From: Paludibacteraceae bacterium
GTDB lineage: Bacteria > Bacteroidota > Bacteroidia > Bacteroidales > Paludibacteraceae
DNA: 64,000 nucleotides
NCBI GenBank assembly: GCA_905235225.1
Contig: CAJOKE010000005.1
Span: forward strand, 27,291-91,290
Direction: 5' to 3'
The notes under the pieces are model-generated. The model saw only the letters and a list, made by a program, of their open reading frames with translations, was not told the origin of the DNA and did no database searches. The position numbers and the translations under genes are program-made. The stretch's first letter is position 1; each line of letters begins with the position of its first letter. Below are positions 9,963-61,476 of this stretch, piece by piece.

Positions 9963-10017
9963 CACGACTCGCTTACGGGAGACATACGGGACGGTTACGG
10001 GAAACTTACGACCGAAG
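9963..10017. repeat. 11-bp tandem array, about 5 units (TACGGGNGACN-like)
   Basis: Units CACGACTCGCT/TACGGGAGACA/TACGGGACGGT/TACGGGAAACT/TACGACCGAAG at 9963, 9974, 9985, 9996, 10007. Confidence 0.85.
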
Positions 10018-10044
10018 AAATTCACCAGCGGACGAAATTTTCTG

Positions 10045-10052
10045 CAAAGATA
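10045..10052 (-). promoter_or_regulatory. Putative Bacteroidetes -7 element (TATCTTTG) upstream of flippase gene
   Basis: CAAAGATA on + strand equals TATCTTTG on -, fitting TAnnTTTG; no good -33 TTTG at 19-20 nt. Confidence 0.4.
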
Positions 10053-17478: not shown

Positions 17479-17533
17479 GCAGTTTACGTTTACATCTCGT
17501 TCGCATCACGTTCGCATTCAGTACGTCACAATA
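17479..17533. repeat. 11-bp degenerate tandem array overlapping the 3' end of the S24/S26 peptidase gene
   Basis: GCAGTTTACGT/TTACATCTCGT/TCGCATCACGT/TCGCATTCAGT/ACGTCACAATA in 11-nt register from 17479. Confidence 0.65.
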
Positions 17534-25117: not shown

Positions 25118-26143
25118 AGTACTCCATGTGATACTTACTTTATCTAAATACAAAGCATTTGAGCGCGAACGAAGTCCTACATATGCATAATCTCCAGTAA
25201 CATTCAATTCTACTCCAATGTTATTATTATCAAAACACAAGCTTCCCAACAGTGTTCCTTGAGTTGATGTATTATATAGATTACTTGCAGCAGAATAAGC
25301 TGTATTACTACCATAAATATCAACATATCGAGTAGCAGAAGTGTTTGAATTCCACTCGATAACAATCTTTGTTACTTTTCCACCAGAAGTAGTAGAAACA
25401 ATACCTGCGGTAGAATTACTTGAGCGTAACTGAATTGAGTTATTACCACCTGCACTATTACCTGCATAAAAAGCAGCAGATTTATCAGATTTGTTTTCCC
25501 AATCAGCATATGAAGTTCCTGTCACGCCAATTGTACTATACGTTATTTCGTCGGTTACAGTTGTCGTGCCGCTGCCTTCACCTTTTTTAGCGAAGACGGC
25601 GTAGTAGGTGATGCCTGATGCCGGCATAGTGAGGTCAGCAGTGGACGTGATGATAGCAGCGATGTGGTCCGCATTTGAACCATCGAAGTCAGGATTGGTA
25701 GTCCATCCGACAAAGACCTTGACATTATCGCAAGAAGCTGATGTAGGTTCAGGTATTGCAGGTGTGAGTTCGGAGAGTTTAGTACCTGCTATAGCTGTTT
25801 GGGTGGTAGTACTTCCATTTACTGACCAAACGGCGTTATATGTAGGAATAGCTGTTACAGTGGCCGTAACGGATACATCACTTGCCGGCATAGTGAAAGT
25901 ACGTGTATTACCTTCGCCGGACAGCGTAAGGGTATTATCGTCTGCATCTTTGACAACGAGTGTGCCGAACACATATCCCGCAGCGGGTGTTACGGTGACC
26001 GTGACGGTAGATTCAAATTCTGCCGTTTGTGGTGAAGTAGAGTTGGAGTTAACCGTAACCGTTCCGTTGGATATGGACGGTGTGAAAGTTACGTTGTAGT
26101 TTTTCTTCTGCCAAAGGGCGTATAGGTTGGTGTTTTTGGTGAG
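25115..26143 (-). CDS. Middle fragment of the same giant protein, separated by apparent frameshifts at both ends
   Basis: Frame carries LTKNTNLYALWQKKNYNVTFTPSISNGTVTVNS...VFGTLVVKDADDNTL...ITWST*, continuing the repeat of the upstream ORF. Confidence 0.7.
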   Translation of the reverse strand, partial: LTKNTNLYALWQKKNYNVTFTPSISNGTVTVNSNSTSPQTAEFESTVTVTVTPAAGYVFGTLVVKDADDNTLTLSGEGNTRTFTMPASDVSVTATVTAIPTYNAVWSVNGSTTTQTAIAGTKLSELTPAIPEPTSASCDNVKVFVGWTTNPDFDGSNADHIAAIITSTADLTMPASGITYYAVFAKKGEGSGTTTVTDEITYSTIGVTGTSYADWENKSDKSAAFYAGNSAGGNNSIQLRSSNSTAGIVSTTSGGKVTKIVIEWNSNTSATRYVDIYGSNTAYSAASNLYNTSTQGTLLGSLCFDNNNIGVELNVTGDYAYVGLRSRSNALYLDKVSITWST

Positions 26144-29100
26144 TGTGTGTGACAGAAGCTTGGTTATCGTAAACTTTGGTGCCGGAAGCAGATGTTGCCC
26201 AACCTATAAACTCATATCCTGTGCGGGAGAAGGTATTATCCGTCAGTGCCGTAGCGGTGTTGTAGGGTATGGTTTGTGAAATAGTAGCGTCCGAGCCATC
26301 GTTTTTGTAGAAGGTAACGGTTACTTCGGTCGGAGTGACACAGTTTTTAGTGCCGGTATAGTAGGTGGTGGAAGAGCCGGAGCCGGAAACAGTAATCTTC
26401 GCATTACTAAATTGAGCATAACTCGAAGCGTTGGATGGACGCGTAAACGACACAGAGGTAGCGTCACCCGTCCAAGAAAGAACAGATGAAGTTGCAGTAC
26501 ATGTTCCAACATTTGAGGTTATATCCGTTTGATACGTACTACATGTAAACACAATCGAAGTTATAGAACCTGTAGAAACAGTAAAAGTGAGAGTATTATC
26601 TTTGTAGAACCTTGTCGAAGTTGAATTAGCGTACATGGATCCAGTACCTCTTGTATGAGTAACGGTAACACCACCTTTTGTCGCTTCCACAGTACTTCTA
26701 TCATTTCCTGACCATGAAGAAGTTTGACCCCAATCGTTTGCATAACCAAAATTAAATTCTACATCACCACTTCCACCACCGCTGCCGCCGTCTTCGGTGT
26801 GGGAGTAAACGGCATAATAGTCTTGGTTTTGTGTGGCGGTGAAGTCAGTAATCCATCCTGATGTGACGGTGGTATTATCGTCAGCGAGTTTGGAAGAGTA
26901 CCATCCGACGAAAGTATAGCCGTTATCTGTACAATCGGCAGGGTCGGAAGGTTTGGTTGCGGATTGTCCTTGCGTGACGGTTTGGTTAGAGCCTATTTGG
27001 GTTGTGCCATCAAAGAAACGGATGGTGTAGGTGGGCAGGGGATTAACCGTGATTGTGTATATTGCTGTTTTGGTGGTGCTGCCCTCGGTATAAGTGACGG
27101 TAACGGTTTTTGAGCCGGTGGTGGTCATGTCGGGTGTTGAGACAGAGGTGGGCGAAACGGTTCTGTCTGAACAATCGCTGTATTTAGCAGTAACGCCCAG
27201 CCCTTCGGATGAGAAAGCATCGCCTTGTGTGAAGGTTTTGGTTACAGCATCCGTATTAAGCGTAATACTTGACAGGGTGCAAGTAGAGCAGGTGGTCGAA
27301 TAGTCGGCATAGGAGGTGGAAGAACCGCCGGAAATAGTTATGACAATAGTTTTTATTCGCGCCTGTTTACCACTGTTTCCTGAAGTACAAGCAGGAGATG
27401 TCCATGTGGCTGAATTTGGCGTATATGAAGTATCCCAATTACCGCCATTATATGTGCCATCAAACGTAAACTCTATAGATGAAATGTCACCAACTGAAGA
27501 TTCTATTGTAAGTGTTGCACCCTTATAGATTCGATAATCTGTTCCATTATTCAATACACCATTAGAAGTTGATAAAGTTATTCCGTCTACAGGAAATAAA
27601 GTGTTTGTCTTAGCATCTAAAGTTATTGTACTGCTACCGCTGCCGGAACCGGCAGTGGCATAGACGGCGTAGTAGGTAGAAACGGAATAGGTGTCGCCGG
27701 TTTTAGCGAAGGTTGGAGCTGTCGTAGCATTAGTATAAGAACTATTAGTACACCATCCTACGAACTTTTTACCGCCGGTGCCGGAGCAGTCAGACGGAAC
27801 GGAGGGGAGTGTTATTTTATCATCGGCAGCAATATTTGTGGCATGTGTAACGCTATTAGCGACCCACGTAATGAGGTGTGCTGCTTCAGCCAGTATAGTT
27901 ACATCGCCCGTGACGGTAGTAATCGTGAACGTGTTAGTAGAAGGGTTGTAGGTAAAATCCGTTCCATAAGTCAGTTCAGTGTCCCCCATCTCAACCATCC
28001 AGCAGGCAGCGTCTGCAAGAGAGTATCCAGCGTCAGGAGTAATGGTCAGGTTAAGCGTTCCGTTTAGAGCGACTGTACCATCAGCAGGAACGGTGCAGTT
28101 ATCTCCTAACAAAGAATAATCCCATTGGGTTTTTGTCTCTCCGCCGTTATATTTGAAGGTGATGTTTCCGGCAGACTCAGTAATTTCAGTTAAGGCGCAG
28201 CCTGTAGCCGGGGTATAGGAACGAACATTGCCTGTGCCGGGGAAGGTGGTGCCGGATGTACTGGTTGCAGTAGGGTCAATCACATAGGGTGTATATGGGC
28301 GGGTGAGGCTATTGGCTGTAACCACCGTGTAACCAACTGCACTATTATTAGGAGTATTATTCGTCCAATTGGAAGAATTATATTGTACTTCCCAAACGAC
28401 CATACCATGTCCGGGCAGATATTTATCCCATCCGGTTTTTTGACGGTTTTCGAGATACCAAACTCGATCAGAAGCGGTAGCGGCTTTTAGAGCAGTACCT
28501 CCGGTAATTTGATATGCACTTCCATAAGTGGTAGTCAAGGTGCAATTCTTCTTCGCCTCTTTTGCGAGCAGTGTGGGTGTTGTCCATCCGAAATAGTATT
28601 TGTCATGCGGAGAATAATTGGGTGGTGTACGTCCGTCGTTATTATAACTTCCGTAGTCCATGATATGCCAAGACCCCGGGGTATAGTCTTTTTCGTCATT
28701 AGCAGCCGAAGAAGATGTAACATAGTAATCAGGAAGTCCGAGTACATGTCCGAACTCATGGGCAATAGTACCAATCGGACAGCGCGTAGTACTTCTTCCT
28801 CTTAATTCACCGGAGCAAGCATAGTTATTGATGTAGAGGTTATCCACCTTTCTTTCTGATTTTGCATACGTGCAGTTGTTGTAATAAGAGGCACTCTCGA
28901 GTGTCCAGTTATGAGGCCAAACCGCATCAGCGTCATCCGAATCCGCTTCTCCCTCACCAGCATAGATGACATATACAAAATCCACCTCATTGTCTCCGTC
29001 ATTGTTGTATTTGGTAAAGTCCACGCCATCCGCATCGGCTGCTTTGCAGGCTTCAACAATCATATCACCTGCCAAGAGGTCGTCATCATTACTATCGTTA

Positions 29101-29654
29101 CCGCCATAGTGTGCTTGGGTATTCGAGATAGTATATGGTCCTACTACATCAAAGTCAGGAACATAAGCACCGTTGGACTGCGCTTTGAAGAATTCCCGCA
29201 CAGATCCGGTGGCGGAGTTATAGGTATAGTTCTCTGCGTTCATCATGTCCGACATAGCCGCACGGGTGTTCTCCGATCGGAAGGATTTATCCGTAAAATT
29301 CACCAGAATAACCAAGCCTCGCGGAGCAAGATTAATTGAACCGGCTGCTTTACGGATAGGTGAAGATGGTTGGTAATACCGTCGAGAAGCCTGTTTAGCC
29401 TTTTGCGTGTCGGTTTGTACAGCGGGTGTGCTATTGACATTCCACCAGCCGTTGGCATCTTTTGTAACCTGCTGTCCGTCTTCGTTCTGCCAATAATGGA
29501 AGAACTCGTCGCCCATGAGGCGGACGGTGATGGTAGTGCCATCGGGCTGTGTTTTAGTCTGCCATCCGCGGTAAGCAGGTACGGCAGATAGTTGGTTAAG
29601 ACCAAGAATAATCACGCACAGGAACGTGCAGAAGCGTTTGAAGTTTAGTTTCAT
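26049..29654 (-). CDS. N-terminal part of the giant protein: signal peptide plus M6-family metalloprotease domain
   Basis: Signal peptide MKLNFKRFCTFLCVIILGLNQLSAVPAYRG; CPIGTIAHEFGHVLGLPDYY zinc motif; C-terminal InlB-type repeats; tail ASVTHTHQKHQPIRPLAEE is out of frame. Confidence 0.85.
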   Translation of the reverse strand: MKLNFKRFCTFLCVIILGLNQLSAVPAYRGWQTKTQPDGTTITVRLMGDEFFHYWQNEDGQQVTKDANGWWNVNSTPAVQTDTQKAKQASRRYYQPSSPIRKAAGSINLAPRGLVILVNFTDKSFRSENTRAAMSDMMNAENYTYNSATGSVREFFKAQSNGAYVPDFDVVGPYTISNTQAHYGGNDSNDDDLLAGDMIVEACKAADADGVDFTKYNNDGDNEVDFVYVIYAGEGEADSDDADAVWPHNWTLESASYYNNCTYAKSERKVDNLYINNYACSGELRGRSTTRCPIGTIAHEFGHVLGLPDYYVTSSSAANDEKDYTPGSWHIMDYGSYNNDGRTPPNYSPHDKYYFGWTTPTLLAKEAKKNCTLTTTYGSAYQITGGTALKAATASDRVWYLENRQKTGWDKYLPGHGMVVWEVQYNSSNWTNNTPNNSAVGYTVVTANSLTRPYTPYVIDPTATSTSGTTFPGTGNVRSYTPATGCALTEITESAGNITFKYNGGETKTQWDYSLLGDNCTVPADGTVALNGTLNLTITPDAGYSLADAACWMVEMGDTELTYGTDFTYNPSTNTFTITTVTGDVTILAEAAHLITWVANSVTHATNIAADDKITLPSVPSDCSGTGGKKFVGWCTNSSYTNATTAPTFAKTGDTYSVSTYYAVYATAGSGSGSSTITLDAKTNTLFPVDGITLSTSNGVLNNGTDYRIYKGATLTIESSVGDISSIEFTFDGTYNGGNWDTSYTPNSATWTSPACTSGNSGKQARIKTIVITISGGSSTSYADYSTTCSTCTLSSITLNTDAVTKTFTQGDAFSSEGLGVTAKYSDCSDRTVSPTSVSTPDMTTTGSKTVTVTYTEGSTTKTAIYTITVNPLPTYTIRFFDGTTQIGSNQTVTQGQSATKPSDPADCTDNGYTFVGWYSSKLADDNTTVTSGWITDFTATQNQDYYAVYSHTEDGGSGGGSGDVEFNFGYANDWGQTSSWSGNDRSTVEATKGGVTVTHTRGTGSMYANSTSTRFYKDNTLTFTVSTGSITSIVFTCSTYQTDITSNVGTCTATSSVLSWTGDATSVSFTRPSNASSYAQFSNAKITVSGSGSSTTYYTGTKNCVTPTEVTVTFYKNDGSDATISQTIPYNTATALTDNTFSRTGYEFIGWATSASGTKVYDNQASVTHTHQKHQPIRPLAEEKLQRNFHTVHIQRNGYG

Positions 29655-29697
29655 TGTATTAGAATTTTTTATTTTCGGGATGGTTATATTTTTTTCG

Positions 29698-29729
29698 TAC
29701 TGACGTGATGACGTGATGGCGTACTGTAT
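29698..29729. repeat. 8-bp tandem array
   Basis: TACTGACG TGATGACG TGATGGCG TACTGTAT. Confidence 0.65.
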
Positions 29730-29741
29730 TATTCAAGCGCG

Positions 29742-29773
29742 CAAAGGTACGAAAAAAAAACGAGATACGCAAA
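29742..29773 (-). promoter_or_regulatory. Putative promoter of the M6 metalloprotease gene
   Basis: Minus strand TTTG (29773-29770), 20 nt, TACCTTTG (29749-29742). Confidence 0.65.
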
Positions 29774-29968
29774 TGAGGGAGCAAATTTTTTGGGAAAAAT
29801 TGTTAAAGAACACAATTATGACGATTGAAGCCCCACATATTTAAGTCTTTTTAACATTAATGATTCAGGGGGGCTATCGGGATCGCGGGAGTTTTTGGGC
29901 AAGTACAGCGTGAGCATTTGAAAAATATTTTTCAAGTATTCATAGGTTATTTATCTATGCCTTATGAC

Positions 29969-30078
29969 CTATGGGTGAGCTTTGGGGGACTTGTGGTTGA
30001 CTTATGGGCGACCTTTGGGTGACCTTTGGGCGACCTTTGGGTGACCTTTGGGCGACCTTTGGGCGACCTTTGGGAAGA
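29969..30078. repeat. 11-bp tandem array, 10 units, consensus CTTTGGGYGAC
   Basis: CTATGGGTGAG CTTTGGGGGAC TTGTGGTTGAC TTATGGGCGAC CTTTGGGTGAC CTTTGGGCGAC CTTTGGGTGAC CTTTGGGCGAC CTTTGGGCGAC CTTTGGGAAGA. Confidence 0.95.
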
Positions 30079-30121
30079 AGTCGGAAAGAGAGGGGGTGTT
30101 TTTTTGAAAAAATGGGTGCCG

Positions 30122-30181
30122 TACTGACGGGATGGTGATTATTTTTTCGTACTGACGGGATGACGGACTGACGTACTGATT
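30122..30181. repeat. 8-bp tandem array, related to 29698-29729
   Basis: TACTGACG GGATGGTG (12-nt spacer) TACTGACG GGATGACG GACTGACG TACTGATT. Confidence 0.7.
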
Positions 30182-30231
30182 TTTCGGGCTGGCGGGAGGA
30201 TGAAGTTTTTCTCAAAAAAAAGGACGAACGC

Positions 30232-30262
30232 TTGCACATGTGCAATTTTTGTAGTACCTTTG
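30232..30262 (+). promoter_or_regulatory. Putative promoter with a 14-bp palindrome at the -33 element
   Basis: TTGCACATGTGCAA 30232-30245 containing -33 TTG; TACCTTTG -7 at 30255-30262. Confidence 0.65.
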
Positions 30263-30300
30263 CGCGGAAGTTAAGGAGAACGAGGGTGAGGGGGATGAAG

Positions 30301-30380
30301 GATGAGGAAGAAGAGGAGTGGGTGAGAATGAAGAGGAGAGGGTGAGGATGAAGCGGAAAGGGTAAAGATGAAGAGGAGAA
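30301..30380. repeat. 20-bp purine-rich tandem repeats, 4 units, inside a ~200-nt polypurine leader
   Basis: GATGAGGAAGAAGAGGAGTG / GGTGAGAATGAAGAGGAGAG / GGTGAGGATGAAGCGGAAAG / GGTAAAGATGAAGAGGAGAA. Confidence 0.75.
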
Positions 30381-30478
30381 GATGAATGAGGATGAAAGAT
30401 GAGGATAAGAACGAGGACAGGAAGGAGAATACAGAATATAGAAAATATAAAAGGAAAATATAGAAGGGAAAATATATC

Positions 30479-32590
30479 ATGAAAAGGCAAGGAATGTTAT
30501 TGGCAGGAATGGTGCTGAGTGTGTTATCCGTATTCGGGACAAGTACGACGTATATGTTCCGTTCGGCGGAGTGGCAAAGTTCGGTTGGTCCGGTGGTATG
30601 CGACGGTAAAAGTGACGGCTGGGTATGCGTGAAAGCCGGTGCGAGTTATGACGCGGGGCGTACATGGGCAGACGGGAGTCTTCACGGTGCGGGTATCAAA
30701 GTAGAAAAGGCGCAGAGCGGTGCGGGTGCGACATCCGTGATGGCGTTCGAGAAGGTCCGCAAGGTGATTGTGGATTTCTGTCTGAGCAGCAAAGGCAAAG
30801 GGGATATAACGATAGCAATCGGGGACACGGTGATGTCCGTGCCAGTCAGCAAATCAATGAAGACCAACGAGAGTGCGGACCTGAATGAGGAAGTGACATT
30901 TACGCTGCTGAGCGAGAAAAGCGGCAAGATAACGCTGAGCGTTGAGAACGTGACGAACAGTTCGGTTTATATCCGCAGTATCACCATCAAAGCGGACAAC
31001 GGGAGCGGGGAGGTGTTCAGCCACAATGTGTATCACCTTGTGACGGATGTGAACCAGCTTCAGGACAGCGACCTCATTATGATCGGCATCGCCGACGGGA
31101 AGACAAACAAGGCTTTGGGGTACTTTGACACGGATATAAGCAAGAACAATATCCATGCGGTGAATGCGACATATGACTCGGAGCGCGAGTATATCCGTGC
31201 GAACGAAGAGGTGACATATGTGCTTCGCAAGGCCGTGTCGGAGAAGGGCAAAGCGGCATGCTATACGATAATCGACCCCTATGCAGAGGCGTACCTTGTG
31301 GCGTCCGGCGGCAAGACGAAGAATGCGCTTCGGTTGTGGGACAAGCCGTATGACCCAACGACTTACGGCGACTACGGTTACTGGGATATACAGATAGCGT
31401 CCGATGGCACGGCGACGATCATGTGCCTCGGCAACTCGTTAGGCAAATACATCCAGTACAACCCGACGTTCGAGTTGTTCGGGTGCTACCAGCAAGAGAC
31501 AATGGGTGCGGTGAGCATTTACCGTCAGGAGGAAGAGAAAGACCCGAACCAGCCGATGATAGTAGCACCGATAGTGAACTGCGGCACAGCGGTGATGCGC
31601 GGTGTGAAGGAAATAGAAGGGAGCAAGACGATAGAAGTGAAAGCGAACAAACTGTCAGAAGACATCAGCGTGAGTCTGAAAGGCGGGACGGTGTTTGCGC
31701 TGAGCAGCGCGACCGTTGACCGCGACGGAGAGCAACTGACCATTATATATAAGGTGTCGGAAGCAGGGAAGTACTCGGATACATTAGTGCTGAGCAGCGG
31801 GGATGTGAAGGCGGAAGTGCCGGTGCATCTGACCGTAGCGCGCGAGTTGAGTATCGCGGAAGCCGTACAAAGCAAGGACTTCGAATATATATACCTCAAC
31901 CCCGTGACGGTGACGAAGAAATATGACCGCCAAGTGTATGTGCGCGACGCAAGCGGTGCGATGATGCTGTATGACGAAGGACCTGACGCGCAACGGTATG
32001 CGAAAGATTTGCAGAAAGGGCATGTGCTTCGCGGTGTTGAAGGCAAATACCAGAACTATTGGGGAGTGCCGGAACTGCACCTGATGGCTGCGCCGATGCA
32101 TGATGCGAAACCGGCTGAGTGTCTGCCGGATACGATGGTGGCGGCGGTCGATTCCGCGGATGTGTGCCGTTATGTGCTGTATGACAGTGTGGCGATTGTA
32201 TATGGCGAATTGGAAGCGGCGGACGGCATTGTCCTCTGGCCAGCCATTGAGGCGGAAGACGGGAATGTGCTGCTGAGCGAATGGTTCACGCTTGGCGACC
32301 AGAGCGAGAGTTTCTATGTGATAGAGGAGCGAATCAAGAACGGCGGCAGTTACCTGTACCGCGTGGAAGGAATCGTGTCGTACGATTACGATGAAGTCGT
32401 ACTGTACCCGACCATGATAACGCTATTAGATAATGAGCCTGAACCGGAACCTGAGCCGGAGCCGGATCCTGAAGGGATTGAAGATACACAAGTGATAGAA
32501 GGCACAGGTTACCGCATAGAGTTACGCAAAGGAATGATGGTCATCACGAACGGCGAGAAGTCGTATGACCTTGTCGGTCGCGAGCAATAA
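30479..32590 (+). CDS. Secreted protein of unknown function with EPEPEPEPDP linker and T9SS-like C-terminal motif
   Basis: Signal peptide MKRQGMLLAGMVLSVLSVFGTS; C-terminus EPEPEPEPDPEGIEDTQ...RIELRKGMMVITNGEKSYDLVGREQ. Confidence 0.75.
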   Translation: MKRQGMLLAGMVLSVLSVFGTSTTYMFRSAEWQSSVGPVVCDGKSDGWVCVKAGASYDAGRTWADGSLHGAGIKVEKAQSGAGATSVMAFEKVRKVIVDFCLSSKGKGDITIAIGDTVMSVPVSKSMKTNESADLNEEVTFTLLSEKSGKITLSVENVTNSSVYIRSITIKADNGSGEVFSHNVYHLVTDVNQLQDSDLIMIGIADGKTNKALGYFDTDISKNNIHAVNATYDSEREYIRANEEVTYVLRKAVSEKGKAACYTIIDPYAEAYLVASGGKTKNALRLWDKPYDPTTYGDYGYWDIQIASDGTATIMCLGNSLGKYIQYNPTFELFGCYQQETMGAVSIYRQEEEKDPNQPMIVAPIVNCGTAVMRGVKEIEGSKTIEVKANKLSEDISVSLKGGTVFALSSATVDRDGEQLTIIYKVSEAGKYSDTLVLSSGDVKAEVPVHLTVARELSIAEAVQSKDFEYIYLNPVTVTKKYDRQVYVRDASGAMMLYDEGPDAQRYAKDLQKGHVLRGVEGKYQNYWGVPELHLMAAPMHDAKPAECLPDTMVAAVDSADVCRYVLYDSVAIVYGELEAADGIVLWPAIEAEDGNVLLSEWFTLGDQSESFYVIEERIKNGGSYLYRVEGIVSYDYDEVVLYPTMITLLDNEPEPEPEPEPDPEGIEDTQVIEGTGYRIELRKGMMVITNGEKSYDLVGREQ

Positions 32591-45586: not shown

Positions 45587-45685
45587 CGACTGCCTTCCGA
45601 CGCTCTATCTCGGTTGCTGCTCGGTTGCTGATCGGTTGCTGATCAGTTGCTAATCAGTTGCTGATCAGTTCCTGCGACTGACATC
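45587..45685. repeat. 11-bp tandem array, about 9 units, core MTCRGTTGCTG
   Basis: CGACTGCCTTC CGACGCTCTAT CTCGGTTGCTG CTCGGTTGCTG ATCGGTTGCTG ATCAGTTGCTA ATCAGTTGCTG ATCAGTTCCTG CGACTGACATC. Confidence 0.93.
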
Positions 45686-61432: not shown

Positions 61433-61476
61433 TACGACTCGCTTACGGGACGGATACGGCACGGTTACGAGCAGGA
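61433..61476. repeat. 11-bp tandem array, 4 units, homologous to 9963-10017
   Basis: TACGACTCGCT TACGGGACGGA TACGGCACGGT TACGAGCAGGA, followed by the same CTGCAAAGATAAT...CCCCTTTTAGTGTATC tail. Confidence 0.85.

Follow-up and report, generated by a model that had tools for sequence, protein, structure and literature searches.

The locus raises the question of what a row of 11-bp direct repeats represents when it lies about midway in the gap between two divergent genes of a Paludibacteraceae bacterium. We analysed a window of 64,000 nucleotides (positions 27,291–91,290 of contig CAJOKE010000005.1, assembly GCA_905235225.1), and all coordinates below count from its first letter. The gap, 29654–30479, separates an M6 peptidase gene (26049–29654, minus strand; 1201 aa, Pfam PF05547) from an open reading frame called at 30479–32590 (plus strand; 703 aa), for which there is no Pfam match, and it holds the array just as the first-pass annotation had placed it. 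TRF describes the focal array as period 11 over 29966–30074, with 9.9 copies, 82% matches and 0% indels; read from the sequence, nine units and a partial one occupy 29969–30074 of the plus strand. Five units (30013–30067) are exact copies of CTTTGGGYGAC, those starting at 29969, 29980 and 30002 carry one or two mismatches each, the unit at 29991 is more diverged, and a partial unit (30068–30074) closes the array. The array first annotated as ten units ending at 30078 is therefore real and advances in 11-bp steps, but it ends at 30074 after 9.9 copies, and the units other than the five exact ones are degenerate.

The array is the core of a dispersed element, which we assign to family E. At least 12 copies are present in the same genome, and 12 of them align over ~200 bp; this alignment places the focal element, composed of leader, array and tail, at 29926–30120 (plus strand), with a left end at ~29926 and a ragged right end. 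The 12 copies have arrays whose lengths vary in whole steps of 11 bp, and their tail, AAGAAGTCGGAAAGAGAGGGG, is almost unchanged; the corresponding focal segment, AAGAAGTCGGAAAGAGAGGGGG (30075–30096, plus strand), is nearly invariant among the copies. The focal leader (29935–29968, plus strand) consists of diverged 11-bp units (AAGTATTCATA, GGTTATTTATC and TATGCCTTATG) that lag-11 identity places in the register of the array. Since the family E leader (AAGTATTCATC plus transitional units) itself follows the 11-bp period and keeps phase with the CTTTGGGYGAC units, two unit types share one register within one element. In a sister copy, the leader has a lag-11 identity of 0.53, a value reached in 0 of 5000 shuffles. 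Searches for the focal element in phages and plasmids, as its possible source, gave no match. Short 8-bp repeats (TGACGTGA, ACTGACGG) lie on either side of the element, at 29701–29722 and 30151–30179, and segment TTTTTTCGTACTGACG is found again beside most family E copies.

Both flanking genes are preceded by TACCTTTGC, which, from the sequence and knowledge of the motif, we take to be a Bacteroidota-type −7 box (TAnnTTTG). One box lies before the M6 peptidase gene (29741–29749, minus strand) and the other before the divergent open reading frame (30255–30263, plus strand). The element starts (29926) ~177 bp from the left-hand box, and the array ends ~181 bp upstream of the right-hand box. Between the right-hand box and the start of the open reading frame is a second kind of tandem array (30299–30379), with 4.1 copies of the purine-rich 20-bp unit AGGGTGAGGATGAAGAGGAG.

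The four further 11-bp arrays listed in the first-pass annotation all exist. A family J array of the CCCGTAAGCGA type (9972–10010, minus strand; TRF and family comparison) lies in a leader, downstream of a −7 box that belongs to it (10044–10052, minus strand). Family comparison identifies a second family J array (61437–61470, minus strand) just 3′ of the ssb stop codon and antisense to ssb. A family I array of three units, ATGCGAACGTG, ATGCGAACGAG and ATGTAAACGTA, occupies 17485–17517 (minus strand; sequence and unit clustering), and a family F array of six units lies at the 3′ end of rlmL (45609–45674, plus strand; TRF and unit clustering). Since the arrays at 9972–10010 and 61437–61470 belong to one family, the window contains four families rather than five.

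The 11-bp period extends across the genome. The draft assembly is incomplete (2.24 Mb in 82 contigs), and we scanned 1.57 Mb (70%) of it, finding 99 intergenic lag-11 arrays against 1–7 for each of the lags 8–10 and 12–14. Dinucleotide-preserving shuffles of the intergenic DNA gave 0 lag-11 arrays in each of 12 trials, so that a chance origin is rejected and the excess over shuffled sequence expected of a genuine 11-bp class is borne out. Multiples of 11 aside, a separate lag scan with a strict threshold counts 55 intergenic arrays for lag 11 and no more than 2 for any other lag, and TRF finds 86 intergenic period-11 arrays in the 1.57 Mb and at most 9 at any other period; relaxed TRF settings reveal some indels inside period-11 arrays. 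Although coding DNA makes up 90.7% of the sequence, 91 of 93 period-11 arrays are intergenic according to a simple trained hexamer gene caller. Coding repeats are rejected on this count, in agreement with the original view that a coding function is unlikely. Outside arrays, the 11-bp signal in all intergenic DNA is only weak. Immediately to the left of arrays in general, lag-11 identity is 0.36 versus ~0.27 at neighbouring lags, and the right side is less raised.

Clustering of the units yields about ten recurrent families and a set of singletons. The family units are TAACCGAACGA (A), TTATTGTATGG (B), AATAGTGCAAT (C), AATAACCTAAT (D), GACCTTTGGGC (E, the focal family), ATCAGTTGCTG (F), ACGATAGATAY (G), GGTAAGTGGCA (H), ATGCGAACGAG (I) and CCCGTAAGCGA (J). 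Most families have their own conserved flanks around the 11-bp tandem core, and the family G flanks, compared column by column, carry on both sides a weak pattern recurring every 11 bases. Because the units fall into recurrent dispersed families with flanks of their own, part of the shared period is plain copying; the initial observation of a shared period without a shared unit holds, with this copying within about ten families as part of its explanation. Judged by eye, a GGAAA-type tail may recur in different families; no argument here depends on it. A CRISPR array was considered and rejected, as the units stand head to tail rather than being split by unique spacers.

Five congeners show the identical period peak with partly different units, which upholds the proposal of an intergenic class set by its period and not by its unit. 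Among 121 genomes of the genus, our own included, family G occurs in 51–56, family E in 14 and family B in 8; controls with the pattern reversed gave counts near zero, and a single congener has 178 overlapping family G matches. By comparison, 20 regions drawn from the family's other genera contain one array in 398 kb. Array positions turn over between species: a search of the other 29 congener loci did not recover the family F array of 45609–45674 next to rlmL. Closer pairs keep family G elements at orthologous sites, so that conservation at orthologous loci, raised in the first-pass annotation, is seen for family G but not for the rlmL array. When the family G lattice is aligned between different species, many substitutions and few or no gaps are observed. 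In six aligned pairs both members have the same copy number, and in others the lengths differ; these pairs were picked by similarity and are therefore not a random sample.

These comparisons bear on the idea of a mutational machine that creates 11-bp tandem duplications de novo, for example by slippage set by the helical turn or by primer length. Such a machine would account for the 13 singleton arrays, which likewise have period 11, and for compound arrays, in which different units stand side by side. However, most arrays fall into families that recur in dispersed copies, the six aligned cross-species pairs have equal copy number, and only 2 of 93 arrays are coding in a genome with 90.7% coding DNA, a distribution for which a blind machine would need strong selection. 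We consider this origin improbable, and the equal copy numbers also speak against a slippage hotspot as the general role of the arrays.

To what extent the units have anything but spacing in common was addressed by aligning 24 units circularly and on both strands, which revealed no common motif beyond that of shuffled units; one shared binding motif was accordingly rejected. Folding z-scores of the arrays are mixed, with several families at about zero or above, and a long form of family J (z −1.28) is not unusually stable, so a general RNA fold was rejected as well. At gathering scores Rfam returned tRNAs only, and this long family J form has no match near the gathering score. Arrays working through intrinsic DNA curvature or RNA folding would be in keeping with a period near the helical turn and with family F, which folds better than shuffles on both strands. 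Nevertheless, the units have no A-tracts (by inspection), for several families folding does not surpass that of shuffles on at least one strand, and no array matched Rfam; we regard this mode of action as very unlikely indeed, and neither curvature nor RNA structure, both initially suggested, stands as a general role.

Some families show oriented placement. In 40 of 42 cases, a family G array is in the sense orientation relative to the gene that follows it (5/5 in our genome, 35/37 in congeners); against a baseline of 0.573 from gap counts, this corresponds to ~4e-8 if loci are taken as independent, which they are only in part. Where −7 boxes are seen near family G, they lie either 22–34 bp before the array or after it, there mostly at 88–131 bp. 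Family H is in sense orientation upstream of a gene in 5/5 cases, and for family E the gene on the left mostly points away (6/7 in our genome, 8/10 in congeners). Families B, C and I have no clear orientation bias. The family J copies are dispersed cassettes in which a −7 box is followed first by a middle segment that varies in length and then by a highly conserved lattice around CTCGTAACCGTCCCGTATCCGTCCCGTAAGCGAGTCGTAA; of 16 array-bearing copies, 14 are in sense orientation to the next gene. Because the promoter-like box of the cassette lies upstream of the array, the array should be in the transcribed leader. Long family J forms have a GC-rich hairpin insert between −7 box and array (L076:3559-3777, L088:1593-1776 and L071:19707-19955). 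In two close congeners (L200 and L207), a −7 box, a family G array and a terminator-like hairpin follow one another with no obvious open reading frame between them, an arrangement that resembles a small RNA gene.

Oriented placement and retained register fit an array of sites, as would be expected of the phased protein binding that the first-pass annotation listed among possible roles, and two known systems have direct repeats with this spacing. OmpR/PhoB-type sites are direct repeats with 11-bp centre-to-centre spacing upstream of promoters, few in number and of one motif. Our arrays resemble them in their 11-bp-spaced direct repeats and differ in having 3–13 units and no shared motif. The parC centromere of plasmid R1 is likewise a row of 11-bp direct repeats, at least two of which are needed by ParR (PMC9426499). 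This requirement favours chromosomal sites for partition-like or ribbon-helix-helix proteins, with one protein per unit family. On the other hand, one genome has dozens of sites in ten unit families and no common motif was found. Furthermore, parC is a plasmid locus beside parM with one unit, whereas here ~100 chromosomal sites have many units, and the focal array neighbours the M6 peptidase gene and an open reading frame lacking a Pfam match on a 91-kb contig, not parM/parR on a plasmid. A partition-like role is quite improbable in our view; by analogy, ParR/parC of R1 is a model for how an 11-bp row may be read and not a family to which the arrays are assigned.

The nearest known kind of element is BrickBuilt of Porphyromonas gingivalis, a minisatellite MITE with 23-nt units that is always intergenic and present in 19 copies in ATCC 33277 (PMC4596501); our literature search was limited, and an earlier description elsewhere is possible. 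Both have a leader, a spacerless tandem core and a tail, and both are intergenic, dispersed in many copies and found in Bacteroidales; BrickBuilt is one family with a 23-nt unit, whereas here about ten families, all of 11 bp, extend through the genus. The main rival explanation follows from this likeness: the arrays may be neutral or selfish BrickBuilt-style, MITE-like minisatellites that owe their period to an ancestral array and their orientation to insertion bias or the purging of harmful insertions. The leader–array–tail anatomy, the multi-copy dispersal, the patchy distribution of families in congeners and the occurrence of BrickBuilt in the same order all agree with it. It sits less well with the 40/42 orientation of family G, with the lattice of diverged pairs showing few indels and with families that have no common sequence to prove shared descent. 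The ends of the focal element are ragged, and in the alignment of the 12 family E copies neither terminal inverted repeats nor target duplications were seen. We judge this explanation possible but rather unlikely.

We tentatively favour, a little short of even confidence, the reading that the focal array is the family E core within a genus-specific superfamily of 11-bp-register intergenic elements, which would most likely act as oriented 5′ cis elements. New families would arise by drift of the unit while the register is held, elements would spread by copying or transposition, and constraint would maintain the 11-bp register. The array would then present a row of weak sites spaced by one helical turn, and a cooperatively assembling protein may read these sites in fixed register, either on DNA or on the transcribed leader, and so tune the gene downstream. 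This reading is supported by the period-11 peak, the recurrent flanked families, the in-register leader and flanks, the register kept across species and the sense orientation. Against it stand the absence of a common unit motif, the unoriented families B, C and I, the turnover of positions between species, the family G arrays both before and after promoters and the indels under relaxed TRF; insertion bias could also mimic orientation.

With ~100 intergenic arrays of at least ten unrelated sequences in this bacterium and its sister species, nearly all in 11-bp steps, the evidence points to lineage-specific spreading or control elements built on spacing. Bacterial minisatellites normally differ in unit length between loci. 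It is possible, if doubtful, that the conserved feature is the 11-bp register and not a motif, forming a genus-wide cis-regulatory architecture for a factor that senses spacing or weak, degenerate contacts, with some families (J) acting as portable promoter-plus-leader cassettes. If true, unrelated units in oriented 5′ positions would be read in register by a spacing-sensing factor. One period across the genus, with a sequence that changes by family, provides a natural test of whether spacing alone can be under selection, and the 11-bp arrays may offer a handle on gene regulation in Bacteroidota as well as marker loci for strain tracking.
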